From NCBI GenBank assembly GCA_020283715.1, contig JAIQCW010000302.1:1-17185 (forward strand): DNA of 17,185 nucleotides, written 5' to 3'. The notes beneath the pieces are model-generated. The model saw nothing but the letters and a program-made list of their open reading frames with translations. It ran no database searches and was not told the DNA's origin. The DNA is from Cytauxzoon felis. Lineage: Eukaryota; Apicomplexa; Aconoidasida; Piroplasmida; Theileriidae. A program made the position numbers and the translations under genes. The stretch's first letter is position 1; every line of letters starts with the position of its first letter. Of this stretch, positions 1 to 17,185 are shown in pieces.

Positions 1-205
1 ACTACCTTCCTGTTCCTCCGGGTATAATTCCTGTTCTTAGGGGTTGATTATCTACGTTCTTCCGGGTAGACATCGCCACGATCTCTGGGAGTGGCTATAC
101 CGTTTACGGGGAACTAAATAAAAGAGCTCTCTGCAAGAGAATGCGAGGATGTAACCTCAGGTGGAGACCTAACGGTCATCGGATGGACCTCAGGTGTAGT
201 AGATA
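1..205. repeat. Left-end copy of the modular repeat family
   Basis: This stretch carries several modules that recur elsewhere in the window. A 21-bp module at 75-95 has GCCAC/GTGGC arms, and exact copies lie at 13773-13793, 15311-15331 and 16059-16079. A CCG-TTTA-CGG mini-hairpin lies just after it, as in the copy near 15335. CCTCAGGTGG-type ends occur around 155-170 and 185-196. The DNA is visibly richer in G+C than the coding sequence beside it. It is cut by the window edge, so I cannot tell whether it lies in an intron of the minus-strand ORF starting at 332 or between genes. Confidence 0.7.
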
Positions 206-332
206 TCATTTCATATTGTTGATATAGATTTCGACGGAATAGTTCACGTTGCATTTGAGGAGTGTTGTTTGGATGGTACGATATTATTGATAACGGGTTC
301 TGCGTATATAATGAGAGAGGCGATGTTATCAT
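114..332 (-). CDS. Possible first exon of a gene downstream of UTP20, product unknown
   Basis: An ATG at 332-330 opens a 72-codon minus-strand frame. The first ~42 residues, down to about position 205, are ordinary low-complexity-free sequence rich in N, Q, P and Y. The rest is a translation of the repeat element, so the true exon probably ends before the repeat. I could not choose a donor with confidence; GT sites at the GTACCATC and GTCGAAAT positions upstream of the repeat are candidates. The ATG shares its A with the last base of the UTP20 stop codon (TAATG), so if real the gene follows UTP20 with no spacer. No family is recognised. It may also be a chance ORF. Confidence 0.3.
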   Translation of the reverse strand: MITSPLSLYTQNPLSIISYHPNNTPQMQRELFRRNLYQQYEMISTTPEVHPMTVRSPPEVTSSHSLAESSFI

Positions 333-3300
333 TATTTCTTTTTTGATTGATGTTTTTTTAATTTTCTTTTAATAGAGTATTTTGTATTTGTAACTAGTTG
401 TAGATTTAAATGTTTTTTATTGATTAATCTTGATTTTAATATAAAATTTCTAGCGAAGCTAAGTAATTGTAGATAATTTATTGATTGATTTAATTTAATA
501 AAATATTGTTCAATTTTATGTAATAATATTTGTGATTTATCTTTAAATGTATAATTTATATATTTATATCTTCTACTACTTTTAGAATTTCCATCATCTG
601 AATCTTTAGCATGTGCAATTCTATATAAACCAATTATAATCTTTAATATTATATGACGATTCTTTTCATAAAATAAGAAATCACAATTAATAATAAATTC
701 AATAACATCAAGTAAATAATAAATACGTTGTTGACATTCATTACGTTTACTTAAATTACAACGTAATAAATAACATAATTTAGATATTATTTTATTAAAT
801 AATTTATAATTATTATAATTTATAGATATTATTAATGTATTTTTTATAACATCTACTGTAGCATCACCAACTTTTTTATGATTTTCTATAATATTTATAC
901 CAAGTGATAAATTTTTTATACAAGGTTGTATAAATGTATATAAATTTATATTTATATCCATATTTATTAATATTAATGATATTACACGTAATGATGCAGC
1001 TTTTATCCATGGATGTTTATTATTTATACCAATTTCTATTATATAATTCTTAATCTCTATTAATACATTTATATTATTATCTAATTGTAATAAATATTCT
1101 AATATCCTTATCCAATAATATATATTTTGCCATTCATCTAAATCATTTATAAAATCTTTATATAATTTAAATATATTATATCTATTTATATCATGTATAG
1201 TATACTCATTTCTTATACATATATAAACAAAATATGCAAATGTAGATTTATATCTACTACATAATGTAAAATGAGATATACAATCCAATAACTCATTCCT
1301 ATTCTCTACAGTACCCATATTCCATATCGTACATACCAATTTTATCATACTCCCCTTACAACGATGGTCATCCTCCAATAATAAACGAGATGATATCGCC
1401 AAACCTATCATACACCCATACATCCTCCATGATAATCCCAATGATAAATCAATCTGAAATATAAAATTATTTTTTATAATATATAGTGAGTTGAGGCTAC
1501 CTCCACCTGAGGTCCAATCCAACTTTCTTCTCCAACTCTCCTTCCACTGGCCGTGGAGGCTTCATCTATTTATTCATCTCTAAAGAGTAGAGCCACTCCC
1601 GGAGATCGTGGTGAAGTTAGTGATGCATCATCCATCATGGGAATGATGGAAGATGGTTCTAAGGATGTGTTGGATGTAACCTCAAGTGGAAGTGGAATAC
1701 CTGGAAGCGATCTACGGGAGCTGGAAGGGGAAGTAAATAGAGGAAGCTGACGGCAGGACGAAGAAAGTTGGAGAAGGAATAGGAGTGGAATGAAAGGTAG
1801 TACTGGACCTCGAGTGGAACCTGGAAGCGATCTACGGGAGCTGGAAGGGAGGTAAATAGAGAAGGCCACCACGGCGAGTGGAATGAAAGTTGGAGAAGGA
1901 ATAGGAGTGGAATGAAAGGTAGTACTGGACCTCGAGTGGAACCTGGAAGCGATCTACGGGAGCTGGAAGGGAGGTAAATAGAGAAGGCCACCACGGCGAG
2001 TGGAATATAATATTTCAACATACTAATAGTGTATTGAGAGTGTGTACAGAGTTGAATCGTACATTATTATTATTGGAGTTGAGGTGTTTAACGAGTAGTT
2101 GTACATGTGTGATGATATTTTTATTATTATTTATGATGGTGATGGAGTGTGTAATGGCTTTGGGAATGATTTTTTGTGATGAGACATTTACATTATCTTT
2201 AAAGATTAGTGTGAGTAGTGTATTGATGATGTTGTTTATATATTTATGGCTGGTTGGTTGAAGGTCATGGTATTGTAGTAATGTTAATAATAATTTGACT
2301 AGTGGTGTTTGTATAGTATTTTGACTAAGGTTTGTATCAATTTGAATCAAGAGCGTATCAATTAAGTCGTCATGTCCTTTGCCTTTATCCCAAGCATCTA
2401 TTAATAATTGTATATAATTATTCTTTATAAATAGACATAGTAATTTTATATGACTCTTTATCAAATCTTGACTATTCAATTGCTTCAATAATATTATACG
2501 CTCTATTAAATAATCCGATAATATTGCCCCATATTTTTGAATAATATGGGGTTTTTTTTAATTAATTTGATGAATGAGATGGATGAGATATTTTGTAGTT
2601 TGGTATCTTCTGATATGAAAGAGAGTAGTAGTATTAATTCGCATGATGGGATAAATGGCTGTTGATTATTATTGTCATAATTATTGGTATCCATTGTACA
2701 ATATACTTCATGGAAGATCCTTAATGAGCCATTAATTAGTACAGATGCGATTATATGTTTATCATAACCGAATTTTTTAACGTTCCTTTTAGCAATGTCA
2801 ATTTTTAAATTCTCATGCCTCAAAGATGTAATGGTATTTGATGTTCGTGAGGATTCATTTGAAGGTCGAGAAGTTTCATTTGAAGTTCGTGAAGTTTCAG
2901 TTGAAGGTCGTGAAGTTTCATTTGAAGTTCGTGAGGATTCATTTGAAGGTCGAGATGTTTCATTTGAAATATCTTGAAGAACCTTCACCTTCTCACCACT
3001 ATGTTCGATGATTTCGGGTATTTTCTTCAATTCATTTCCAACAACGTGAAATAATAGCTCTTTAGTTTGAAATTCCTCAAGTAGAACATTTGCATCGAAT
3101 CCAAGTGATAACCGGAGGAACGGGAATAGAGAAAAGATGGTAGAGTGTATAAATTGTATAGTATTAATATTTTTATTACCAGAAAAACCATTAGTAGATG
3201 ATAAGATTAAATCTTCAATCCTCCTTAGATATTTTACAGAATAATCAAAAGTAGTTTCTTTAGGTTTAATATTACCACATAATAAATTATAAAAAAATGA

Positions 3301-6300
3301 CCAGATATTAATTGATAGATTTAAATCTGAATATTTTGATAATAATAAAATCAAATTACAACCTCTAGGATGTCTAGCTTCATCAATTTTAGATAATGAA
3401 TCATCTTTATCTTGTAATCTACCAAGTTCATCTACAATCATCTTGAAGATACCATAATCTGATGTAATTACATCACCATCTTTTAATATAGATATTAATA
3501 TAGTATGTGTAGTGAATATCAATACAGAACATTGATAACCTTTGGTTAAATAATTATTAAGTTCATTGATTATACAATTGAGATATTTTATACCTAAAGG
3601 TCTAATTAAATTCAATATAGATATCCTAGATAATCTTCTAACATCTCTGTTCTTACTTGATAATAATTTCGATAATATTCTACTATACTTAATCAATTCC
3701 CTAGTTTTAACACCTTCATCACAATGATAAAATAATAATGAACCAATACATTTAAATACTTCTGGTATAGGTAATTCATGTTTCTTATTCTTATTAATAT
3801 ACATATGTTTCAAACGATTTAATAATATATCCAATACATCACCAATACCATCACGTAAAGAATCCGAAAAGATATTTAATAATACTATAAATCTATAACG
3901 TTCATATAAATCAACCAGCTGTATTAATAATTTTATTAAACTAGGTACACTAATATTATAAGATATAACAATCAACAGATCCTTAGATACATCAGATATA
4001 CTCTTGAATTTCTCACCATTATATTTAATTAAATATTGTATACATAATGGAATAAATAACTTTGTCAATGTTAAATTACTAAATGAACCACCTTCAATAA
4101 TCGTCTTCAATTGTTTCAAACCTTTGCTACGCTTATGTAAATGTAAATGACGTATATTCCTTAAGCAATCAATTAACAAATCATTACATAATATATCATC
4201 ATAACGATGCTGAAAATTAAACCTCAAATGTTCAGGGCTAAATATAGTTATAAATGACTCCAATAACTCTATAGAAAATAAAACTAAAGATTCATCAACC
4301 CTCCTACTACAAAATACACGCCTTATAAACGCTATTATACACTTTATTATAAAGTCCATTGCAACAGTAATGTCATCATAATTTGATATACATGTCATTA
4401 TAGATGTTGTCATGTTCAATACAATACGACGTATCGATGGATCATTATTATACGTCCATACCACATAAAATGAATGACATTGTATAGTATATAGACAATC
4501 CAATGAATATTCACCGTCTTTAACCTTCACCATCAACTCCGATAATAATTCTATATTTATATCAACCACGTCCTTATCAACGACATTCATACGAACCATA
4601 TAATCCGATAGAGACGGCAATGATGCATCTGTAAATATTGTTGTGAAAATAAAGTGGTAATGCCTTAGCTTCAACTATATTTAGGATAAACATACCGTTT
4701 AAATCCTTGAGCAGCATGGATAATATTCTTCTAGTCTGTAAATCTTCAACAACTAAAAAACAGTGATTGATAAAGTTCCATACAAGTTTAATGTGCTCAT
4801 TCTTTTTGATGAATGGAGTGCAAAATTGCAGCGATTCGAGTAAATGTACGAGTTCGTCATTTCTTTTAGACTTGTTATATTTCGGTAAATAATACAAGAG
4901 TATTTCAAGTGTTTTTGATTTAATTTCATCGACGGGTAACTGTACAATACCTTTGATAATAATAAAGTCGCATTTTGAGGTTCCATTAATTAAGCCTTCG
5001 AGTAATACATGAGCGGATTTAATCATGATGGACATCATATCATCAGTAACATCTACATTCGATAACATGAGGTCGTGATAGATATTATGAGCAAGTTTGG
5101 ATGATAGAGGAGATAAACTACCCTTGAAGATGTCTGGGAATATTGTAGGTATAACCGTTGTACAGAATTTGGAGATATAATCCATTTTACTCGTCCATGA
5201 TAGGATAAATGTCAATGCCATTGTATTTTTAGCAAATAATGCAGACAAAATACTGGAATTTTTAGACAGGAGATCGATAAATTCATCTCTCAATCCATCA
5301 AAGATCTCTACAAGCTCAATCATTACCTTGAAGATACGATCAATTAATGGAGGGGAATAAAATAAATCCAATGGTTTAGATGTGACAGTGACATCTTGAG
5401 GGTAGTCGGTATCAAAAGAATCTTCATTATTCAAACCAGAATCTCCATCACTAAATGTCAACTCATCATTGCTCCTCTTTGCCACAACTTCATCCCGAGC
5501 TTCAAAATGAATCTTCAATAACATTTCAATTAGAATCGTCATTATATAAAGACCTTGTGGTTCTAAATGCTTCCTTAAACGTTTAACAAGAATTAGTAGT
5601 GTTAAAAGTATCCTGGATAACGATACTTTTGTCCTGGGTGCATCGTACCTCATGATAGAAAACCAAGTAGCCGCATGACCATCTTTCAATACCTCATTAA
5701 TGAAAAGCTTGCAATAATCATTAGAAAGCAACTCAATAAAAATTAAATTTACATGCTTGGATTCAAAGGTTGAAAAGTAGTCGATGATTCCAATAGCATG
5801 TGGTACGTTACCATGTTGAATAATCCTCGGTACAAGTAATCTCAACTCAATAGCAAGTGATAATTCATCTATAGATTCTAATGGTTCTTTAATAACGTCT
5901 AAAATTTGTTGATTATTTCCAGATGCCATTACAATCAATCGTTTGGCATTGATTTTATACCTCGTAGAACATAGTATAACACAACATTCTCTAATTTGAA
6001 CATCCATAGATGTTAATCCATCCACTATACAATAGTCGAATAATTGGTCATTATCCAATACCCTATTATAATGCTTTAGTACTTTGGAAGTAGTTACAAT
6101 TGGTCCACGCTGTAATTCTGTATTACATTTCCTACATGTATAATCCACAAGCTCATTAATCTTATTGGTTCTATTCTTAATATTACCAAGCAATTCTTCA
6201 ATCAAAGATAGTACTTGAGTCTGTATTGTATTTAAATCACTTCTAGTAGGATGCTCAGTATCATCCTCCAATAAAGAAAAACTACACCTCCATATCATCT

Positions 6301-8448
6301 CTAAAACCTTAGATTCTCCTTTAACTCTTGAAATCAACTGACGAAATGAATCCATAGCCAACTTCCATAATGGAGAAAATTTAATTAAAAATTGAGACAA
6401 CAATATACCAACAATTAAAATCATAATCAATTCATCCTTAAATAATAATGGATCCAATTCACCAATAGCCTTTGAAAACAATAAAGCCTTCTTCCTTTCA
6501 TTCTCTAAAGTATTTTCCAATCGCTCAGATTCCATTAAATGTAATAAAAACTTTACATCATTACCACGAACTTCATAATTCAAATGTATAAATTTAATAA
6601 TTTTACAGCGTAATTCTGATAAATGAGTCGGTAACTGATCCAATACATCATTGATTAAACATTTTGATTCATTAATATTTTTACATAAATAATCAATCAA
6701 TAGCCAATCCTTTAATAAACTCTTCCTTCTATTCACAATTTCAATAACTCTATTTGAATCCACATAATCATCACGAATTGAACAACAAATGTTAAATAAC
6801 CTCATTGCCACATGAGTATTTTCATTAAATTCTAATCCATTTAAACATTTTTCATATGCTTCATCCAACAATACTCCCAACTCATCAGTCTCCATCTTCA
6901 GACTCTTACGTACCCTCAATAGTATCAAATATGATCCCAAACACTCGCATAAATTTTCAAAATCCAATGTCAATCCTAACTTTATAAAATATTTTATACG
7001 GTCTATAACCTTTGGATTAACAACAAAAGAATGAAATGTAGTACGATCCTTGAAAATCTTAGATACCATTGATAATATCCTTGAACCACGAATAGCATCA
7101 TCATTCTCCATTAAATTCCATTCTAATATCGATATCCATGGATTAACTACATTATAACCATCAACAGATGATAAAACATCATCTAAATATTGATTTAATA
7201 CCTTAGTAGCATCCGAAGAAGATCGAACCACTCTTAACAATACATTACAAATTTCCTCGAAAATAGATTCTTTAATCTGTTTAAAATTGCGATTAGACTT
7301 GAAATTTTTAATAAAATCCAGAAGAGGAATTATAAAGTTGTACAAAAAACTATAAAATTGATCTCCATCAGTTACAAGTGGTAACGATTTGAATACAATT
7401 CCAACATTAAATGATAATAATATCTCTATAGATAATTCTAAAGAAATCTGTATTGACTTCATATTATCTTTAAGATCTTTCAGCATTTGACTATATAAAT
7501 CCTTCAACCAAGTCAAGTTTATATCGTTTCCACCATGATGATTAATCATTAATTTGACACAATTTCTTACAGAACGAACAACAAGAGGTATATTATCAGA
7601 CTCTTTAGGTATCAATTCAGTTAGAATATACAGAAAAATCGTCTCCAATTTAGATGTAAATGTACCAGAAACATTCTTTATGCCAGAGAAAATCAACAAT
7701 TCGGAGCCATTTCTGAAGGAATAAATTTAAATTGAATAAAAACATACATTATTATGCAATTTTCAATCAAGTCATATAATGTTGGTACAGGCGTTCTTTT
7801 AATTAATATACCAAAGGATTCCATAGATAAACGTTGAATCAATGCATTGCTATGTTTTAGCCAGGGCATAAAATCAGAAAGCAACGAGGGTACATCATGT
7901 AATATCTCGCTTGAATTCAACCTATAATACGTATAATTAGTAATAAATTGATTTCAATTTACTTGAAATTTGTACATATAAATGCAAATATTGCCTTGGC
8001 ATTTAATTCCGGGTTTATTTCCAATATATCCAATAAATTACCATAAGGTACGGGTGTATCTTTAAAGTCCTGATAAAATTAATGACTAAAAGAATCATCT
8101 ATATACCTTGTAATAAAATGCCATCAGTCTAAGTAAATGCTCTGATTCAGTAGGAGATGCTTCCTTTAAACATGTTAAAATTTTCGATGTTATACTCGTG
8201 TAATCTTGTAAATCTGTACCTTCAATTGTCTTCAAGTCTGCAGTAAACCTCCTGAGGTCTTTAGACCTCAGCATATTCCTTAAATTTATTGAAAAATGAT
8301 CAACAGGCTCATCTATATGAATATAGATTGAATTAAACTTCAACAAACTTTTAATGTTTAATTTAATGACATCGTCAAACGGTGTTGCGCTGACAGATTT
8401 AGACAGTTTTGTAGCTGAACAGAATCTAAACCTCTTTTTATCCCTCAT
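332..8448 (-). CDS. UTP20: UTP20 (DRIM-type) HEAT-repeat protein of the SSU processome, six exons, one frame disruption
   Basis: UTP20 is a large nucleolar component of the U3 small-subunit processome, needed for 18S rRNA maturation. My model is exons 8448-8107, 8069-7963, 7921-7748, 7712-4696, 4628-2024 (with a -1 frame shift at 2551) and 1453-332. Introns are 37, 41, 35, 67 and 570 nt, all GT..AG with matching phases. The product is about 2455 aa, close to yeast (about 2500) and human (about 2790) UTP20. Family signs recalled from known UTP20 proteins are the N-terminal KKRFRF motif (residues 4-9), a W-LKH...QRLSMESFGILIKR helix pair near the N terminus, a FILSWTS segment mid-protein, a HPWIKAASL motif near residue 2229 matching the conserved HPHNWVR-type helix, and a lysine-rich C-terminal tail. 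A six-copy heptapeptide repeat sits at residues ~1767-1809. The last intron contains repeat DNA. The identity is firm; the exact exon borders are inferred. Confidence 0.88.
1497..2005. repeat. Repeat-family copy inside the UTP20 intron
   Basis: The left end carries CCACCTGAGGTCCAATC (1503-1519), the family end sequence. A near copy of the 21-bp arm module lies inverted at 1592-1612. A CTGGAAGCGATCTACGGGAG-type module occurs three times (about 1701, 1821 and 1943), and the CTGACGGCAGG module lies at 1747-1757. The right half is a tandem duplication. Repeat modules here are much richer in G+C than the exons on either side. Open frames across this region on both strands are translations of the repeat and not genes. 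Confidence 0.85.
1763..2005. repeat. 122-bp tandem duplication (two copies)
   Basis: Landmarks recur with a 122-nt offset: AAAGTTGGAGAAGGAATAGG near 1764 and 1886, TACTGGACCTCGAG at 1801 and 1923, and the CTGGAAGCG module at 1821 and 1943. The two units are nearly identical by eye, which suggests a recent duplication inside the intronic repeat. Confidence 0.85.
2527..2559 (-). promoter_or_regulatory. Candidate -1 frameshift site: A-AAA-AAC heptamer plus hairpin in UTP20
   Basis: On the coding (minus) strand, eight A residues (2559-2552) are followed by CCCC. In the upstream UTP20 frame the codons are AAA AAA AAC, which places a textbook X-XXY-YYZ heptamer (2557-2551) in phase. Directly after it lies a perfect 9-bp stem: CCCCATATT at 2551-2543, a 7-nt loop, and AATATGGGG at 2535-2527. 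A -1 slip moves the ribosome from the frame that stops at 2506 into the frame that carries the rest of UTP20. A missing A in the homopolymer would have the same effect. The stem starts without the usual 5-9-nt spacer, which weakens the programmed-frameshift reading. Confidence 0.45.
2844..2969 (-). repeat. In-frame 21-bp minisatellite in UTP20 (six heptapeptides)
   Basis: The coding strand reads six consecutive seven-residue units of the form (N/T)E(T/S)SR(P/T)S. Units ending RPS and RTS strictly alternate, so the higher-order period is 42 bp. The tract falls in a Ser/Thr/Arg-rich, probably disordered linker between HEAT blocks (about residues 1767-1809). Being a multiple of 3 nt, copy-number change would keep the frame. 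Confidence 0.85.
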
Positions 8449-8500
8449 TATGAATTAGAAAATGCGATTAGAAATAACAGATTTATATAATGCGATTAAA
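8449..8500. other. 52-bp spacer between uL29 and UTP20
   Basis: AT-rich sequence lying between the uL29 stop (8501-8503) and the UTP20 ATG (8448), with both genes on the minus strand. It must hold the 3' end signals of uL29 and the UTP20 5' leader. No clear motif is visible. Confidence 0.6.
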
Positions 8501-8943
8501 TTATGATTCTTTTTTGTTTTCATCTTTTAACTTTTGACGTAAGGAATTGAGATGATGTTCATGTCTCAAAAATAACAGCTGAGCAAGGGTTCTTTTAGCA
8601 TTTCTTAGTGAGTTTGGCCGTAGATCTGGGTTTCTGACCTTGCGATACTGTTCAATTTTGGCCAGAACCTTTCTAACTCTACGAATCTCCTGTGTTAATT
8701 TTATAACAGAGTGAAAATTCGAATTACCTCTTCTAATTCTGGTATAGACTTCTCACGCCAATATTTAGCTTTACGATATTGTACAGAATTAACGTCATAA
8801 TCTTCAGAATCTCCTGTATGAATAACAGTTTCTATAGAAGTACGACTGTATAATAGATTATTTAGGCTAGTATTATTTTTAATTACAAAACCATTTAAAA
8901 CATGTATTGATATTATTATTAATGTGAAGATTCTAAAATACAT
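8501..8943 (-). CDS. Ribosomal protein uL29, apicoplast-targeted, two exons
   Basis: Bacterial-type large-subunit ribosomal protein L29, predicted to serve the plastid ribosome. Exons are 8943-8728 and 8689-8501, with a 38-nt GT..AG intron between phase-0 codons; the product is 134 aa. Residues 1-19 form a hydrophobic signal peptide (MYFRIFTLIIISIHVLNGFV region), followed by an Asn/Ser-rich transit-like segment. The uL29 core reads REKSIPELEE before the intron and EIRRVRKVLAKIEQ after it, then a helix with SLRNAKRTLAQLLFLRHE. That matches the conserved R-x-K-S/T-x-x-E-L start and the R(R/N)A/I-A-R(V/L)-T/L helix of the family. The tail is Lys/Glu-rich. Plastid location is inferred from the bipartite leader. 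Confidence 0.82.
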
Positions 8944-8977
8944 TTATATTTTATATGCATATCCATAGTGTATTTTA
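8944..8977. promoter_or_regulatory. 34-bp gap between divergent starts
   Basis: If the small plus-strand ORF at 8978 is real, this gap separates it from uL29 on the minus strand and would have to hold both start regions. No motif was recognised. If the small ORF is not real, the uL29 promoter lies further out toward 9304. Confidence 0.25.
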
Positions 8978-9123
8978 ATGTCTAGTATTCTCACCACATT
9001 CGGTCTTGTTTATCATCAAGAATAAACATGGGAGAAATTGGATCTCTTGCATTTATAATTATTGGATTATTTTGGAATATACTTTGTCCTCATAAATTAG
9101 AGCAGATTTCAATTTACATTTGA
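8978..9123 (+). CDS. Possible tiny single-pass membrane protein, two exons
   Basis: An ATG at 8978 gives 25 nt. A 32-nt GT..AG intron (9003-9034) then joins an exon to the TGA at 9121-9123, for a product of 37 aa. Without splicing, an ATG at 9030 gives a 31-aa frame with the same C-terminal half. The core reads GSLAFIIIGLFWNILCPHK, a clear membrane-spanning helix followed by a Pro-His-Lys turn. Tiny ER membrane subunits (OST4-like or V-ATPase subunit e-like) have this look, but neither match is convincing. It may be a chance ORF. Confidence 0.3.
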
Positions 9124-9304
9124 AGTTGAAACATGGATGAGATCAACTATAATTGTTTGAGCAAATTGTATACTAAAGCAACTATAATCATTGTAGTATA
9201 TTCAAATATGATGTAATATTTCATATTTAACATCTAGTTAATCTTTTAAACTTTAGGGGATGATATTATATGTATGTTAAGGGGATTAAAAAAGGGTATA
9301 CCGC
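9124..9304. other. AT-rich stretch upstream of the RAP gene
   Basis: No convincing gene. A 27-codon plus-strand frame starts at an ATG near 9133 and ends in a short hydrophobic segment, but I could not join it to a neighbour. The stretch probably holds the leader or promoter of the RAP-domain gene. Confidence 0.4.
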
Positions 9305-10302
9305 ATGGGATTTATAAAGAGATACATGTCTAGTATATGTAAATTGACCTTGGAAAATGTGTACAATAGTCGTTTACAGCGTAAAAGGATTGATTGTTTA
9401 CCAATATTAAGTAATCTGAATTCTATAATTAATAACATTTCAATGAAAGATTTGAACGTTGTAGTAGAGGTATTAATGATGAATAGAGTAAATTTGTCAT
9501 GTGATAGCATGATTTTGAAATTTATAAATGATAAAGTTGATGATGATAGATTGATATCATTAAATATATTAAGTAATCTATTGTTAATGAATAAAGATTG
9601 TAATGACGAATATTATCTGAGTATTATTGATAGATTTAGGACAACAGGTGATATTAATGAACAATTGATGTTGTTGGATATATTTTATACGATATCATAT
9701 CATCATCCTAGGTTAATAAAGTTATATAGCAAGGAGCTGGAAAATTATCAAAATTATTTAAAATTAACATCACCTAATATTAAATTTCAATCTTATTACT
9801 TGAAAGATTTTCATGGTGATGAAATTATTAAAGACGTTTTAATGAGATTAAAAATTGAGTTTACAAGTGGTATTATAGGTTTGTACTCTTCAATCTTACT
9901 TTGAACATCATTCATATAGGACATTTGTTTAATCATATAATAATAAATAGTACCAATTTGATAATTTTTCTAGTTGATAATAGGTAAGGATCATTTTTTT
10001 TATTTTAATTTATACACTTAGTAAACTTTATTATGAGAGCATCGATTATATCCCAAGAATACAATTGTAAGTTGGACATGGAAGAATATAAACTGTATAT
10101 AAAATCTTTTATACTCATTATATCAAAAAATACTTACAGGTATATAAAAATCTTATCTGAATTTGGTTGGCATGTTAGTTTATGTAATTTAGATGAGTTT
10201 AATATAAAGAATAAACAAGATAGATTCGATTTCATATCAAAACTTATAGCTACTTATTATGTGGGTATACAATTTAGAAAAAAAATCAATGTGTTATCAT
10301 AA
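9305..10302 (+). CDS. RAP-domain protein, probably organellar RNA-binding, four exons
   Basis: My model is exons 9305-9878, 9920-9983, 10022-10066 and 10140-10302, with GT..AG introns of 41, 38 and 73 nt whose phases all match; the product is 281 aa. Residues 1-190 are predicted alpha-helical repeats of the type found before RAP domains. The C-terminal part, assembled only after splicing, reads LIIFLVDNSKLYY ... YIKILSEFGWHVSLCNLDEF. This matches the RAP pattern of a hydrophobic strand ending in (V)D, a basic/aromatic helix, then L-x-x-x-GW-x-V and an acidic/hydrophobic end. RAP proteins in apicomplexans are numerous and act on mitochondrial or plastid RNA, often fragmented rRNA. No signal peptide is seen, so mitochondrion is the better guess. 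The start codon is the first ATG in frame. Confidence 0.72.
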
Positions 10303-10391
10303 TGTAGTGTATAAACAACATCACCATATACAATATGGATGATGTGTATGGAAAAAATTTAATATATAAATTCTATACACATTTTAATTTA
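10303..10391. other. Short spacer with an imperfect inverted repeat
   Basis: An 89-bp AT-rich gap between two plus-strand genes. Around 10317-10347 a CATCACCATAT arm faces an ATATGGATGATG arm, giving a small imperfect hairpin that could influence 3' end formation of the RAP gene. This is weak evidence. Confidence 0.3.
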
Positions 10392-12344
10392 ATGTCAATG
10401 TTTATAATAATTTATTTATTCTTGATACTAAATTTTATTAAAAATGTTAGTCGTGTCTATTCTTGAATGAAATTAATTATACATAGGGGAGTTGTAATTG
10501 GAATAAACAATTTGTAAGTAATTCAAAAACTATACCATCAATAGAAATCAAATTATCACCACCAGAAAATGTATATTTTAATTTTACTTTATATACAAGA
10601 TTTTAATTAATCTATAGCCATTACCTCAAGTTGAAGATGAAGTGAAATCACTAGAGACCAAGAGGATACAATTAGAAGAGGTATTTTAAAATTTGAAATT
10701 TCCTAATAATATATAAAGGGTATGATGGCTAAAGTTGAAGAAAAGTTTAATGACGCCATAATCGCATCAAAAGATAAAATCAAATCACTAATAGAAGATG
10801 TCAGTATTTATTAATCAATTCACTTACACATTTCAATAGAACCTTAAAATTTTCGATAACAAAGAACTTATAGCCAATATAATCTCCAGAAATAATAATA
10901 CATCTTTCGTTCAAGTACAAGAAAATCTCATACCATCTTCAGTACGAGTCATGGTATATTCAACCATTTCAATCAACATTATCAACACAGATGAGTGATA
11001 TACAACTACCAGATCCTGTTATCAAAGAAAAAATGGTTTGTATAAAATGATATAGCATTGCGAACTCAAAGGAATTTAACTACTCCAACATCTGAGTTCA
11101 TGTCCACCTTCCCTTGACTTCCACCTGAGGTCTTTCCACTCGCCGTGGTGCCCTTCTATTTACTTCCCCCTCCGCTTCCCTGAGATCAGCTGCGGGTGTT
11201 CCACTTGATGTCTGCTTAATATAACAAATATCAGATTTGTAACCGTCCTTTAGGCAGTTATCTTTTTCATAACTACAGCATTCACACACTACGTGACGTA
11301 TGTGTGTTAATGACGCTAACGCCATTTCATATCCCGTAGTTTTATTGCCAATTTTTAAAACTGAAAGGCCTTGAAACAGTGATGCCTTTATTGTTATGCC
11401 GCCATTGTCTGCTCCAACCGATGTACACTTACATTCTTTAGTCACCTTCAACTCCTTCGTATACACCTCAACGAGTCTGATAAACTCTAACAGCCTGGAA
11501 GCGATCTACGGGAGCTGGAAGGGGAAGTAAATAGAGGAAGCTGACGGCAGGATGTAGAGAGGTGGATTGGACCTCGAGTGGAGTAGGCAGCATATGATGT
11601 ATATAAATATAATTATAGGAGCAGATAGAGCAGCTTAGGACAGAGGAGGAGATTCAGGTAAGATTTTGTATTATTGTGATGACATTTATAGAATTTTTAT
11701 CAAGTATCGGACGAGTTTGATAAATTGGTGGATGTAACATTGATAGGTACCTTTGATGAGTCTAAATTTAAAATTTTGAATTATAGAGTTGGAGAGGGCA
11801 TTAAAGATTCAATTAAATCCGTATTTATTGGAAACTTCTGTATGTTTAATATTGGATAGTGTATGAAATTATAGGAATTCAGAGGTTTAATGGATAGAAA
11901 GCATAGTGTAGTTAATAATAATAAGCAGCCAGTATCATTTTTACAAATGGGTCAGATACCTTTGCAAAATTTACAACAACTCAATGTAAAGATAGGACAA
12001 TCAGATACACCGTGAGTTGAAATATTAATATATAATGATATAATTATAAAATAGATATCCAACTGTTGATGATTATGTAATGAATATGGAGAAGAAGAGG
12101 GATGAAGCAGAACGTGTAGTAAGTTGATGTTAATAGATAGTAGTTAATTATATTAATAGGAACGTAATAAGATATTAAATTTATATATGAAATTAATAAA
12201 GGTTAAATTTTATAGATTATATATAATTTAAATTAATTATAGGCTCAACATGAAATGATAAAGGATGAATTACATGTGGGTATTAGTAAAATCATATCAC
12301 AATATAGTGGTTTCATTGAAGAATATCATAAAAATAAGAAATGA
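10392..12344 (+). CDS. Unknown secreted or plastid protein with coiled coil, 13 small exons
   Basis: My model is exons 10392-10452, 10545-10570, 10618-10680, 10719-10799, 10840-10953, 10991-11035, 11619-11657, 11692-11746, 11787-11839, 11875-12011, 12055-12118, 12160-12201 and 12243-12344. Every junction is GT..AG and every phase fits; the product is 293 aa. The protein starts with a hydrophobic signal peptide (MSMFIIIYLFLILNFI). Three charged, heptad-like segments follow: ~VEDEVKSLETKRIQLEE, ~KMEQIEQLRTEEEIQ, and a C-terminal one from EKKRDEAERVERNK to the end. No family is recognised. Eleven introns are 34-92 nt; the sixth (11036-11618, 583 nt) contains repeat DNA and a Cys-rich ORF. The join between exons 1 and 2 is the least certain. 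Its stop codon overlaps the miaA start. Plastid targeting is possible but not shown. Confidence 0.68.
11095..11600. repeat. Repeat-family copy with Cys-rich ORF, in the intron of the 13-exon gene
   Basis: The left part has CCACCTGAGGTC, the CCACTCGCCGTGG module and a CTTCTATTTACTTCCCCCTC module followed by an AGATCAGCTGCGGGTG variant. The right part (11495-11580) has the CTGGAAGCGATCTACGGGAG module, CTGACGGCAGG, and an end of GGATTGGACCTCGAGTGGAG. The sequence between them (about 11210-11490) is a minus-strand Cys-rich ORF. The order is the same as in the miaA copy: repeat arm, Cys-rich segment, repeat arm. Confidence 0.8.
11098..11466 (-). CDS. Cys-rich ORF carried by the intronic repeat (gene fragment?)
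   Basis: A minus-strand open frame whose conserved part runs from about 11490 to 11212; its C-terminal end is repeat translation. It starts without ATG (GTG at 11466, frame open further upstream). Visible signature: C-K-C near the start, ~45 residues, then VCECCSYEKDNCLKDGYK. The ORF at 13268 has the same C-x-C-C-x6-C-L-K-D-G-Y-K spacing, so the two are homologous. There is no signal peptide or stop near the domain edge, which suggests an excised domain or a degraded gene fragment inside the mobile repeat. Function unknown. Confidence 0.45.
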   Translation of the reverse strand: MYTKELKVTKECKCTSVGADNGGITIKASLFQGLSVLKIGNKTTGYEMALASLTHIRHVVCECCSYEKDNCLKDGYKSDICYIKQTSSGTPAADLREAEGEVNRRAPRRVERPQVEVKGRWT

Positions 12345-14549
12345 AATTATATTTAATTTTTAATTTTACAATTTATACATGTGCATATAAATTAAATTTT
12401 ATACATAATATGAATTTTATCGCAAATCGTAATCTTATTATCATAATTGGTCCTACAGCATCTGGTAAAACTAAATTTAGTATAGATCTTTGTCTAATGT
12501 TATCTAAAAATAATATCAATGTAGAAATTATAAATTGTGATGCTATGCAGGTATGAATATCTTACATATTCAATAGAATCTCCATCTTATCCAGGTCTAT
12601 AAAGGTTTCGATATAGGAACTGCTAAACCTATTGATGAAATGTCTATAATCCCTCATCATTTATTTAGCATAATTGATCCTAGAAATGAATTTAATGTAT
12701 CCAATTATAATCGTAAATGTAATGAAAAGGTTATTCTTGTATATTTTTAATTCTAAATTACTAATCCAGATTACAGAATTGTATGAGAGAAATGTATTAC
12801 CAGTAATGGTAGGAGGTACAAATTTATACATTGAAAGAGTTCTTGATCCATCAATAATAAATATGACAATGTCACCTTTACGTGACCTGGAAGAAAAGTA
12901 TAAAGGTCTGTAGAGATATTTTATAATTTGTATCATTTCAGATTATAAAAATGAAACTTTATATGAAATGTTATTAGAATTAGATCAAGAACGAGTATTT
13001 TCTTATCTACATGATAATTTAATCATCTATCCAGGCCAAAGAAATACATCCTAATGATCGCAAACGTATACTCAGAAGTATAGATGTATGTCATTAAATG
13101 ACAAAGAATATACTGTGATATTGAATAGTCCACTCGAGGTCCAATCCCTAACTTCACTTCCACCTCTTCCTTCGTCCTGCCGTCAGCACTCCACCTGAGG
13201 TTGTTCCACTCGCCGTGGATGCCTCTTCTATTTACTTCCCCCTCCGCTTCCCCGAGATCAGCTACGGGTGTTGAAGACAGCAGGGTGTCATTGTAAACCA
13301 GAAGTATCACCTATTTCAGGTTATTATGACATAATAATACCAAGAAATATAACACAAAATACGTGTAGATTCCCATACATTAGATGTACACCGTGCCCTT
13401 GTTGTGAATATGATTATCTAAATTGTTTGAAAGATGGTTACAAGTGCGGTATAAGTCATGTAATGAAATATTTCTTCGCCGCCTCTAACTGTAACTGTGT
13501 TGGTATATCAGTAACAAACGGAAATAGACATCATAGTATCATAATACAAGACACGGATAAATTATGTCATTAACATACCCGAAAGAGATTTACAGATCTG
13601 GAGGGATTAGTATACGTCCACTATATATTCCACCTAAGGTTGTTCCACTAGGCGTGGCGCCTCTTCTATTTACCTCCCCCTCCACTTCCCTGAGATCAGC
13701 TACGGGTAGTCCACTTGAGGTTACATCCTTAATTCCACTTTCATCACTACCTTCTACTCCACCCTCTTCACTGCCACGATCTCTGGGAGTGGCATTACCC
13801 TTCAGGGATAGGTAATTAAAAGAGCTGACGGCAGGACGAATCAAGGTGGATTGTAACCTCAGGTGGAGTGGACAGATATAAGTATATTATTTTCGTATAG
13901 GTATGTAAGACGTATAATAAAAATTTAGTGATTTGGTGAGTGATGTGAATGATGGGACATTGGAAGAATTAAAGTAAGTATGATGATCTTAATATATAAT
14001 GATGTAGATATAAACCATTGATATTTATATTGGAGTCTGATCCAAAGATTCATAGAGAGAGGATTAGGGATCGTATAAAGGAGATGATGAAGGTATATAA
14101 AATTTTAATTTGATATTTATTAAATTAGAATGGTATACTTAATGAATGTAAAGATGCTTATGAATTATCGAGTATGCTGGATATATAAATCGTTAATAAA
14201 ATCTATACAGAGCAATATCCTAATATAAAGGGTATAATACAATCTATAGGATATAAAGAAATGATACCATTATTATTAGAAGATGGTAAAGTGAATTTAA
14301 ATCCATCACAACATGTATTGAATGAATGCATGAAAATATTAGAAAATAAAACATGGCGTTATTCACAACGACAAAAGACATGGATACGTAATCGTATAAT
14401 CAATAATAAAAAATTAACTGTACATTTAATTAATACTAATGGTAAGTTTTTATATATAAAATCTATCTCATTATCCATCAATAGATTTAAATAAATGGGA
14501 TGATCTTATATTAAATTCTTATAATATTATTTTAAATTATTTTAAATGA
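12341..14549 (+). CDS. miaA: tRNA dimethylallyltransferase MiaA, apicoplast-targeted, ten exons, one frame disruption
   Basis: MiaA transfers a dimethylallyl group to A37 of tRNAs reading UNN codons. My model is exons 12341-12550, 12595-12729, 12770-12905, 12942-12994, 13035-13085, 13901-13973, 14008-14092, 14129-14171, 14211-14441 and 14485-14549, about 360 aa. Residues 1-16 are a signal peptide followed by an Asn/Lys-rich leader, so apicoplast import is likely. Family motifs are the P-loop GPTASGKT (37-44), the catalytic-loop Asp in CDAMQVYKGFDIGTAKP, HHLFSIIDP, LPVMVGGTNLYIE, AKEIHPNDRKRILRSID and IKGIIQSIGYKE. Many of these cross my splice junctions, which supports the model. Exon 6 needs one extra base near 13920-13928 to keep the expected V-C-K-T-Y-N-K-N-(L/F)-S-D-L run. 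Intron 5 (815 nt) holds repeat DNA; the others are 34-44 nt. Confidence 0.85.
13120..13880. repeat. Largest repeat-family copy, with Cys-rich ORF, in the miaA intron
   Basis: The left arm (13127-13267) has CCACTCGAGGTCCAATC, CGTCCTGCCGTCAGC, CCACCTGAGG, CCACTCGCCGTGG and the CTTCTATTTACTTCCCCCTC / AGATCAGCTACGGGTG modules. The right arm (13625-13872) repeats CTTCTATTTAC-TCCCCCTC and AGATCAGCTACGGGT, then has the 21-bp arm module (13773-13793), CTGACGGCAGG, and ends in GGATTGTAACCTCAGGTGG. The outermost ends are inverted relative to each other. The centre is the plus-strand Cys-rich ORF. Confidence 0.82.
13268..13573 (+). CDS. Cys-rich ORF in the miaA-intron repeat (1.5 domains)
   Basis: A 101-codon plus-strand frame with an apparent ATG-less natural start (the frame stays open into the left repeat arm; its first in-frame codon is taken as a start). 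It contains one whole domain, C-H-C ... ~45 residues ... CTPCPCCEYDYLNCLKDGYK, then the beginning of a second (NCNCVGISVTNGN...). This indicates tandem domains of roughly 60-75 residues in the parent protein. It shares C-x-C-C-x6-C-L-K-D-G-Y-K with the minus-strand ORF at 11098-11466. The base composition differs from the flanking repeat arms. No known family is recognised, and it may be a captured exon of a multigene surface or secreted family. Confidence 0.45.
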   Translation: MLKTAGCHCKPEVSPISGYYDIIIPRNITQNTCRFPYIRCTPCPCCEYDYLNCLKDGYKCGISHVMKYFFAASNCNCVGISVTNGNRHHSIIIQDTDKLCH

Positions 14550-15552
14550 TCAATTATCAATATCAATAAATGTAAACTTATTATAATCATCTACTTCTAC
14601 ATCAATCTTCTTAGGTCTTGGACCATGTAATTTTTTTATAATCCTTTGTGCTGCTTGTAATATAGATGGCATATTCTTCTTATTATATAAATCTGTTAAT
14701 ACCTCTGATAATATAATCTGACGATTACCCAATTTCGATCCATTCAATGTTAATAATACTCTAGTTGCGATTTCCTCCGTTGAAAACCTAATATAACCAT
14801 AACCTTTATGACGTCCTAGTTATTATATATAATCATCTATATATATATAACATACGTGTATATTTATCCTTAACCAATTTCGTCTGACTAGTAAGTGGAC
14901 CATGTATATAATGAATCAAATAATCTAGAGCATCTTGAGTAATCTCAGGATCAACATTAGAAACAAATAACATCTTTGCACTCTTAATAACCTTACCATC
15001 CTTAGCCAATCTACAACGCTCATTCGTCAATTCACGAACATGACTATCACCAACCTTCCTCAATGAACTAGTACCATGAGGCCTCTTACCATACTGAGTC
15101 CTAAATTGTATATACAAACGATTGTTATTATAAGACTATAATAAAGAGTAAATGAAATTTAATGTGAAAATATAATAAAAATGTGAGAGTTCCACTCGAT
15201 GTCCAATACTATCATCACTTCATCCTGCCGTCAGCTCTTTTATTTACCTCCCCTTCCAGCTCCCGTAGATCGCTTCCAGGTATTCCACTTGAGGTCCAAT
15301 CATTATCATCGCCACGATCTCTGGGAGTGGCTTTACCGTTTACGGGGAAATAAATGAAGGAAGCTGACGGCAGGATGAAGTGATGATAGTATTGGACCTC
15401 TGGTAGAGGTAACCTCGAGTGGAGAGTCGTTGCATTCCTTGGTTGACTTGTTCGTTCATTTCTAAGTGTAAAATAAATGAGCATACCTTATGTTTTTGTA
15501 TAATCCAAGATTTTGCGAGTATAATACTTGAAAGTATTAGAAGAATATCCAT
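14550..15552 (-). CDS. RRM RNA-binding protein with signal peptide, three exons
   Basis: My model is exons 15552-15487, 15135-14856 and 14815-14550, with introns of 351 and 40 nt, both GT..AG with matching phase; the product is 203 aa. Exon 1 (22 residues, [16 protein letters not shown] region) is a signal peptide, and exon 2 begins with an Asn/Arg/Ser-rich leader typical of plastid transit peptides. The single RRM runs over about residues 75-150, with RNP2 as MLFVSNV (from residue 77) and RNP1 as KGYGYIRF (119-126) followed by [15 protein letters not shown]. The C terminus is basic, then acidic. Apicoplast RNA binding is the likeliest role, by inference. The long first intron contains repeat DNA. 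The stop codon abuts that of miaA on the other strand. Confidence 0.82.
15136..15486 (-). other. Expanded 351-nt first intron of the RRM gene
   Basis: On the minus strand, donor GTATGC follows CAT AAG (15487). Acceptor TATTATAG ends at 15136 before TCT TAT AAT. It separates the signal-peptide exon from the rest of the protein. The AT-rich last ~50 nt are unique; the rest is repeat DNA. Confidence 0.75.
15188..15442. repeat. Repeat-family copy with a 36-bp perfect inverted repeat
   Basis: Arms at 15201-15236 and 15362-15397 are exact reverse complements; they start GTCCAATACTATC and end in the CCTGCCGTCAGCT module. Between them lie the inverted CTGGAAGCG-type module (15239-15280), an inner CCACTTGAGGTCCAATC end (15285-15301) and the 21-bp arm module (15311-15331). 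Outer CCACTCGA / TCGAGTGG ends flank the arms. The transcript could fold into a long stem inside the intron. Confidence 0.85.
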
Positions 15553-15645
15553 TCGATATCATTTTTAATAAAGTGAGTGGAATCCTATCCACACATGTGT
15601 CTATAATTTCGGAAAATGTTGTAAAAATTTACTTAATGTATTTAA
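15553..15645. promoter_or_regulatory. 93-bp shared upstream region of divergent genes
   Basis: The RRM gene starts at 15552 on the minus strand and the last gene at 15646 on the plus strand. This gap must therefore hold both promoters or a bidirectional one. It is AT-rich with no recognised motif. Confidence 0.45.
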
Positions 15646-17183
15646 ATGTCGGATATACTAAATAGAATAAAATATGTGCAGAATAGGACGAGATTTTATG
15701 TAATTAGAGATGTAATATCGAGTATAAATGAGAGACCAAAGTTTATAGTTGATGATTACAAGAAAAATAAGCAATTATCTATAAGAAAATCATATTTATC
15801 CAGAAAGGATAGGAAAATTGGTCCATTTAATCATTTGAATGAGCCTCATGCTTATTCTAACATATATGGTGATCCAAATTACTATTCACATGATGAATTG
15901 GTCAACACATGTATCAATGCGGTCAATCATCAACACACTAATCGCATCTTCTGGAAACAGATTTGTACGTTTACAACCCTAAAGAATATACTAAGATGAA
16001 GAAGCGTCACGATATATGTGTTGTCTACTCCACTTGAGGTCCAATCTACTACACCTCTGCCACGATCTCTGGGAGTGGCTTTACTCTTTAGAGATGACTA
16101 AATAGAGGAGCTGACGGCAGGACGAAGAGAGGTGGAGAAGCTCCATGCAATGGGAATGTGATAGGATTGGACCTCAGGTGGAATAGACAACATCTCACTA
16201 CATTTTCCGTCGTCTATATATTTATTACAGGTGAGAAATTGCGTCTTGAGCGAGATGTGATGGATATAAGAGATTTGTTAACGTGTTTATCGTGTATAGT
16301 AAAGGTTGATTATTATGATTATGATTTATTGCGTATATTATCTCGTGAATTTATAGACGATGTCAAAAAGATGGACATTGATAATTTAACGGAGTTGTTG
16401 TATTGTTATTATAAATTCAACGTTTATTCAAGTGGTTTAATTGAAGTTGTGGGTGAGAGTGTGATAGAATTCATGAAGGCATCGTTTATAAAACAATTGG
16501 ATTCAGTTACAGAATATTTGTTGTATTTTAATTTTAATAGAGGGAGGTTAGTTCAAGAATCCTTCAATTCGGCAATGGAATATTCAAATGAATTGAGTGT
16601 ACAACAGTTGTACAAAATATATTTATTGACGGTAGATGATTTAAATGAAGGGGATGTCAAGAAGTTTAATGATGTATTGGAGGTAAGTGATGATAAAAAT
16701 GTTGATGTGAATATATTAATTGAGTATTTATTAAAGAGGTTGTCAATGAATAATGAAATTAGTGTTAGATCAATTGAGAATATGGAATTATTAATTAGAG
16801 ATGTAATGAATCAATATAAGACATATCAATCATTGAATATACCAGAAGATAATCATAATCGTATTCAATACATTAGTAAATTGATCAAGACTATATTTAT
16901 ATTATGGAAATGTGATAAAGATATAAATGATTATATATCAGAGATTATATTGTATAAATGTAATAATCAACATCCAGAAGAATTGGTAATGTTATATGAA
17001 GTCATAAATGATAACAAGAATTTAATGATCAATACAAATGAAAACATCAAGACTATTGTAAATCATGAAATTATAAGACAATTAACATCATTTGATGAAA
17101 GATTATTAAAGAAGATTTCAAATGTACAAGATCCATACCTAAAACACTATTTAAAATTCCCAAAATGTCTACGTATAAAATGA
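15646..17183 (+). CDS. Unknown alpha-helical protein, possibly organellar RNA-related, two exons
   Basis: Exons are 15646-15964 and 16231-17183, joined over a 266-nt GT..AG intron (GTACGT...TTACAG) with matching phase; the product is 423 aa. The join reads ...FWKQI-C-EKLRLERDVMDIRDLLTCL, which makes one continuous helix. The N-terminal ~70 residues are very basic (RKSYLSRKDRKIG region), which suits a mitochondrial or RNA-contacting protein. The rest is made of amphipathic helices of ~35-40 residues, such as LLTCLSCIVKV...DLLRILSREF and NLTELLYCYYKF, resembling the helical repeats of RAP/FASTK-like or mitoribosome-associated proteins of apicomplexans. No RAP domain is visible before the stop at 17181. 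The function call is only a resemblance; the gene model is solid. Confidence 0.7.
15965..16230 (+). other. Expanded 266-nt intron of the last gene
   Basis: The donor GTACGTTT at 15965 and acceptor TTTATTACAG at 16230 restore a TGT codon and keep the second exon open for 317 codons. Unspliced, the first frame stops at 15997-15999. The intron centre is a complete repeat element (16019-16192). Confidence 0.75.
16019..16192. mobile_element. 174-bp MITE-like element with 28-bp terminal inverted repeats
   Basis: The ends 16019-16046 and 16165-16192 are inverted copies with 2 mismatches in 28 bp. They begin TGTTGTCTA and end GAGGTCCAATC on the left arm. Similarity stops just outside these positions. 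The interior holds the 21-bp arm module (16059-16079) and CTGACGGCAGG. This is the simplest copy in the window, so it best defines the ends of the family. No target-site duplication is obvious, and no transposase is encoded. Confidence 0.7.
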
Positions 17184-17185
17184 AG

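Follow-up and report, generated by a model that had tools for sequence, protein, structure and literature searches.

A palindromic mosaic repeat family in introns, intergenic DNA and exons of the Cytauxzoon felis genome

Repeat arrays and gene models in the window

The DNA analysed here, termed the window, is the entire Cytauxzoon felis contig JAIQCW010000302.1 (C153 in our numbering; 17,185 bases), one of 181 contigs in a genome of 8.62 Mb. A sequence-only reading of this contig had described six copies of a modular repeat, and six arrays are indeed present, at 32-199, 1500-2006, 11118-11584, 13129-13868, ~15191-15424 and 16028-16184. The same palindromic family, whose arms carry one of two cores (X or Y), is dispersed through the genome in introns, in intergenic DNA and, in frame, in exons, and its arms in places enclose fragments of a cysteine-rich (Cys-rich) gene family. 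The arrays of the window and their cargo are as follows.

32..199, no strand assigned: array 1, at the left contig end, with an X core and a terminal repeat; intergenic in the gene model
1454..2023, minus strand: intron with array 2 (1500-2006), identical in our gene model and the earlier reading; donor GTATGT, score 6.76
11036..11618, plus strand: intron with a composite element (arm 11118-11212, cargo, arm 11494-11584)
11213..11493, minus strand: cargo, a Cys-rich family fragment enclosed by a pair of Y arms that face inward
13086..13900, plus strand: interruption of an IPP-transferase gene by a composite element (arms 13129-13269 and 13643-13868); junctions tentative
13277..13567, plus strand: cargo, a Cys-rich open frame; modelled as an 'exon' with weak splice sites
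15136..15486, minus strand: intron with array 5 (~15191-15424); arms 15191-15236 and 15362-15407 are 91% complementary
15965..16230, plus strand: intron with array 6 (16028-16184); terminal repeats 16019-16046 and 16165-16192 are 93% complementary

Genes were modelled with a hidden Markov model (HMM) that was trained on the genome's own long frames, with splice sites re-estimated and the coordinates of the earlier reading not supplied; the commonest donor in the resulting models is GTATGT. In a first run the elements were non-coding by construction, which hid the exonic class. This run was replaced by an element-neutral model, in which element sequence counts equally among exon, intron and intergenic states. 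The introns at 1454-2023, 11036-11618, 15136-15486 and 15965-16230 were recovered under both treatments. Of the five intronic copies that had been assigned to five different genes, four thus have introns that agree to the base, and the fifth lies inside a gene but with tentative junctions. Here the HMM divides 13086-13900 into two introns flanking a 289-nt 'exon' (13277-13565), whose acceptor (score -0.33) and donor (1.49) are both weak; the donor at 13086 scores 6.76. This segment interrupts a gene, because a single Pfam IPPT domain is matched on both sides of it (profile positions 1-128 before, 147-242 after). The motif GTATGT also occurs on both sides (13086-13091 and 13901-13928), and the modelled junction would require a 4-nt exon or some other solution.

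The left-end copy, suspected earlier of lying outside an intron, is intergenic in the gene model. The earlier statement that every intron devoid of a copy measures 32-92 nt does not hold, since element-free introns of 95, 124, 197 and 226 nt occur in the model as well; some of these may be gene boundaries. Arrays 5 and 6 have fold z-scores of -11 and -4.35, respectively. Within array 2, positions 1763-2006 form a perfect tandem duplication of 122 nt, which points to recent local rearrangement.

Abundance and placement across the genome

A 17-nucleotide word from the terminal repeat has 301 forward and 299 reverse exact copies in the genome (600 in all; reversed control, 0), and a 42-nucleotide word from the Y core has 218 (control, 0). 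Rates were estimated from a sample of 257,185 bases comprising C4:1-120000, C60:1-60000, six 10-kb contig starts and the window; another 11.9 kb around matches on contigs C1-C3 was excluded from rates. The choice of stretches was not fully random: the window is the original finding, C4 was taken because matched loci had revealed its length, and the other contigs were chosen by number. Counts of two exact words in the sample agree with the genome (18 copies vs 17.9 expected, and 5 vs 6.5 expected). Arrays, defined by 14-mers common to at least five places and mostly 170-470 nt long, number 126 in this sample and make up 10.0% of its bases, which extrapolates to ~4,200 in the genome. Two conserved proteins find their best match in Theileria equi, one at 46% identity over 78% of the query and the other at 57% over 54%, and their next matches in other Theileria and in Babesia, which places the genome among the piroplasms.

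Under the element-neutral HMM, the 126 arrays fall into introns (75), intergenic DNA (31) and exons (20). The corresponding counts are 36/12/10 for C4, 5/2/2 for C60, 27/16/8 for the six contig starts and 7/1/0 for the window, where six arrays appear as eight intervals since the interval method divides two composites. The proposal that copies sit almost only inside introns therefore fails beyond the window, and the observation that no exon is hit is correct for the window but not for the sampled genome. The gene models behind these counts are imperfect: among those listed, three have one internal stop each, and one that is cut at the end of the C60 stretch is out of frame (93 stops).

Non-element DNA in the sample amounts to 33 kb of intron, 31 kb of intergenic DNA and 167 kb of exon. 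Because exons account for so much of this DNA and for only 20 of the 126 arrays, they are strongly depleted in arrays. Introns show an excess over intergenic DNA when all calls are used (75 vs 31 arrays, p 8e-5). A stricter count takes in an element intron only if its donor and its acceptor both score above the 75th percentile of the best sites in random exon windows, a cut passed by 43 of 68. The difference between these 43 introns and the 31 intergenic arrays is no longer significant (p 0.30); this comparison is rough, as introns on the C1-C3 pieces are among the 68. We therefore do not claim a robust preference for introns over intergenic DNA.

By a conservative count, the arrays that are in sense orientation and wholly contained in an open exon number 12 out of 126. 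On C4, the gene model places exonic arrays as follows.

25465-25572, 25784-25980, 45164-45455, 66112-66499, 90826-91006, 111015-111270 and 111701-111981 on C4: exonic arrays

Sense orientation was found for 18 of the 21 oriented exonic arrays, the three antisense cases being probably model errors, compared with 34 sense and 42 antisense among intronic arrays (12 of 138 arrays were not orientable). Individual cores behave likewise (exonic, 39 sense vs 5 antisense; intronic, 53 vs 75; p 2e-8). Among arrays of at least 180 nt, the sense frame is open in 16 of 18 exonic, 11 of 42 intronic and 0 of 17 intergenic cases. The X-to-Y spacing is a multiple of three in all ten exonic sense pairs and in 26 of 53 intronic and intergenic pairs, once four segment-split pairs and one antisense exonic pair are set aside.

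Since the HMM assigns exons partly by openness, these frame tests are partly circular, and two independent tests weigh more. One uses the 16 introns that the non-coding model had forced over exonic arrays. Their donors, with a median score of 1.81, fall short of the best sites in random exon windows (3.26, p 0.012) and are far below the donors of element introns (p 4e-6). The other compares two genes with their piroplasm homologues; in the alignments, four arrays of these genes stand out as extra in-frame sequence within variable linkers. In a conserved protein of 852 residues, two element peptides (e.g. NYLSLKSRATPRDRG...PVADLREAEGE) are missing from all six aligned relatives: in the four closest the gaps are nearly unbroken, and the two Babesia have a few residues scattered there. 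In an ABC1-kinase/beta-lactamase protein (L034), both element copies lie within variable linkers; the first is aligned to unrelated linker sequence; at the second, T. equi shows a nearly continuous gap and other Theileria carry a different, unrelated sequence. The element peptide motifs, with one mismatch allowed, were found in none of the 136 fetched homologues. We considered that exonic calls might be artefacts of openness, and reject this for most arrays on the basis of orientation, the splice strength of forced introns and the homologues. Modules X and Y each have one open hydrophilic sense frame, with grand average of hydropathy values of -1.27 and -0.91. An example of a predicted element-encoded peptide is PVADLREAEGEVNR.

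Modular arms and their cargo

Reading inward, each arm consists of the terminal repeat TCCACYTGAGGT, a small hairpin in a position termed the H slot, a spacer, and an X or Y core. At least six H-slot hairpin types occur (CCTGCCGTCAGC, GTCTTGCAGACAGC, CCACTCGCCGTGG, CCACTAGGCGTGG, CTCTTGCAGAGAG and CCATTGCATGGAG). An X arm is paired with a Y arm in 76 of 93 inward-facing arm pairs, and both outer copies of the terminal inverted repeat are present in 54 of 138 arrays. Ahead of X lies a 4-bp stem (S2) that takes the forms CTCT-AGAG (61 copies), CCGT-ACGG (12) and CCCT-AGGG (8). It is fully paired in 85 of 93 copies, and its compensated forms represent a few founder types rather than many independent changes. 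Matched arms, with the same hairpin in both, had been expected and were rejected, as the H types are alike in 20 of 67 pairs vs 16.3 when shuffled (7 untyped). This independence between arms suggests that modules recombine freely.

Thirteen inward pairs have at least 130 nt between their cores, and 11 of them are Y-Y. In eight of these long arm pairs, the Y arms enclose a second repeated core of about 230 nt, termed 'Z', which was found at 11 places in the sample (the query C4:62121-62350 and ten others that are 72-87% identical). An Rfam search of the window, L015 and L040, which covered one locus that holds a 'Z' core, gave no match at E 0.05.

Cargo of another type occurs in the window. The segment at 11213-11493 resembles cargo on contig C3 (85-86% identity across 257-260 nt), and the Cys-rich frame at 13277-13567 has 47 matches in the genome, itself included. 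The six best-scoring Cys-rich loci, the only ones fetched with this frame, all lie between element arms, as do the second copy in the window and the copy on C3. Stretches of the Cys-rich family were noted at 13277-13567 and 11212-11310 in the window and at loci L036-L041. A longer gene of this family (L041) extends over 518 residues in the available stretch; its matched segment lies inside a long open frame without adjoining arms, with an array ~0.1 kb past the 3' end and the 5' side outside the stretch. A word-based search of 5.8 billion proteins with the L041 protein gave no homologue at E 0.001. Given this result and the position of the cargo between arms, fragments of an apparently lineage-specific Cys-rich gene family ride inside the element.

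Explanations for the spread of the element

We favour, with a probability of roughly three in four, the view that this is a selfish, non-autonomous palindromic mosaic element, which is placed by host tolerance and does not create introns. Each array would comprise two inverted arms of exchangeable hairpin modules, at times with central cargo, and the family would have spread to the ~4,200 extrapolated sites via hairpins and recombination or via a trans-acting mechanism. Its distribution would then be governed mostly by what the host tolerates. Intronic copies would presumably be removed together with the ordinary intron, intergenic copies would be neutral, and exonic copies would survive mainly if they are sense and in frame, and would be read as a hydrophilic linker peptide. 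The earlier suggestion that selection leaves mainly intronic insertions is supported by our data, and should be widened to intergenic and sense in-frame exonic survivors.

Several observations weigh against this view. Apart from the partial circularity of the frame tests and the 11 long intronic arrays that are likewise open in sense, element introns remain long after the masked element is subtracted (median 121 nt vs 40 nt for plain introns). Part of this excess is old element, because decayed modules can be seen by eye in many element flanks, and the element may also prefer longer introns. A 40-kb stretch (C60:20001-60000, loci L030-L033) has zero masked element bases where ~20 arrays are expected, a gap that uniform spread followed by selection does not explain. 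It suggests a protected or spared compartment, or a chimeric contig. The GC content of this stretch is lower (26-29%), and three of its four 10-kb blocks have more short introns than any other block.

Traces of insertion and mobility genes are also lacking where we looked for them. In the 54 arrays with both outer repeats, flanking sequences show no target duplication (direct match 3.72 vs 3.74 shuffled; a duplication of at least 4 nt in one array vs 0.23 expected) and no complementarity, so that insertion itself is argued from the homologues. Profiles of Y1, DDE_3 and MULE transposases, whose controls were all positive, had no match in the genome, and a Helitron profile had none in a search that lacked a working control and is uninformative. 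Reverse transcriptase was matched in one gene only, possibly a candidate telomerase.

These results bear on the strongest alternative, in which the arrays belong to a known superfamily of DNA transposons, as an ordinary miniature inverted-repeat transposable element (MITE) or a foldback element, and depend on an autonomous partner that we missed. MITEs and foldback elements are non-autonomous, have inverted and modular arms, and can carry cargo, and the family resembles them in each respect, including its terminal repeat. However, its arm modules shuffle independently so that there is no fixed unit, its exonic copies are open in frame, and neither target duplication nor, among the families searched, a transposase was found. 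We regard this alternative as unlikely.

Less probable still is the proposal that the family is introner-like, creating or targeting introns, such that it would bring or recruit splice sites and yield a new intron at every genic insertion. Introners, including the hairpin introners of the alveolate parasite Amoebophrya, share with this family the presence of repeats in many introns, inverted repeats and hairpin folding (PMC7789003, PMC9860276). Indeed, 60% of the sampled arrays are intronic, and some element introns fold into long hairpins, as Amoebophrya introners do (PMC7789003). In contrast to introners, splice sites here are not tied to element ends: the donor lies 24-188 nt from the element and the acceptor 25-141 nt (5-95% range in 60 element introns, after 8 of 68 were dropped because a flanking exon was <30 nt or the array overran the intron). 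Nor are there direct repeats at the junctions: the sequence around donors resembles that around acceptors no more than in shuffled pairs, and the sole position beyond |z| 3 is below expectation. These findings, together with the many exonic and intergenic copies, led us to reject the introner model.

We also give little credence to a host-useful module, whose hairpins would aid the splicing of long introns or which would diversify proteins or the Cys-rich family by recombination: the compensated stem types, the splice sites of element introns (at least as good as, and slightly stronger than, those of plain introns) and cargo drawn from a gene family that gave no homologue would fit it, but fold z-scores do not differ significantly among intron, intergenic and exon classes (p 0.13-1.0), and divergence from the core consensus is alike in introns (0.045) and intergenic DNA (0.047), with 0.061 in exons. 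Folding itself is common, with z below -3 in 42 of the 94 arrays that were folded (of 138) and a median z of -3.5 relative to shuffled sequence for the 62 intronic arrays among them.

Among known systems, the repetitive extragenic palindromic sequences and bacterial interspersed mosaic elements (REP/BIME) of enterobacteria are bacterial and extragenic, and combine small palindromes into mosaics. The present family shares this mosaic design but lacks a match to their Y1 transposase family. A closer likeness in mode is offered by the Rickettsia palindromic elements (RPE) and other bacterial MITEs with open frames. RPE are bacterial repeats of 105-146 bp with target duplication marked '?' in a review (PMC2229807; RPE are also cited in PMC6649704). 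They are short palindromes that occur in intergenic DNA and also as in-frame parts of protein genes (PMC2229807). The element studied here would work like RPE, although we compare mode rather than sequence and do not claim membership; it differs in residing in a nuclear genome with introns, in its longer and mostly intronic arrays, and in sometimes carrying cargo. Coding palindromes of Nematomorpha mitochondria likewise place long inverted repeats within coding sequence (PMC6649704), but those are mitochondrial, whereas here a dispersed family of shared sequence is involved that is also intronic. Among the matches listed in an open-literature search on Theileria, Cytauxzoon and piroplasm repeats, no such family was described in piroplasms.

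This parasite lineage is regarded as transposon-poor. In this small, gene-dense, apicomplexan-type genome a repeat has spread massively, entering introns and also, in frame, proteins, a pattern described for bacteria (Rickettsia). A broader reading, which we hold tentatively and at somewhat under even odds, is that of a nuclear mobile palindrome tolerated in two ways, being spliced from introns and translated as a soluble linker in exons, that is built from freely exchanged modules, captures and re-inserts host gene fragments, and makes up ~10% of the genome. The family would provide a possible way for gene fragments of the apparently lineage-specific Cys-rich family to move, and would be a natural experiment on the tolerance of intron, exon and linker positions to insertion. 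It also calls for caution, as gene models of this organism may include repeat-encoded peptides.

Elsewhere in the window, a short tandem repeat within a large minus-strand gene appears as five overlapping copies with 21-nt spacing (2836-2968).

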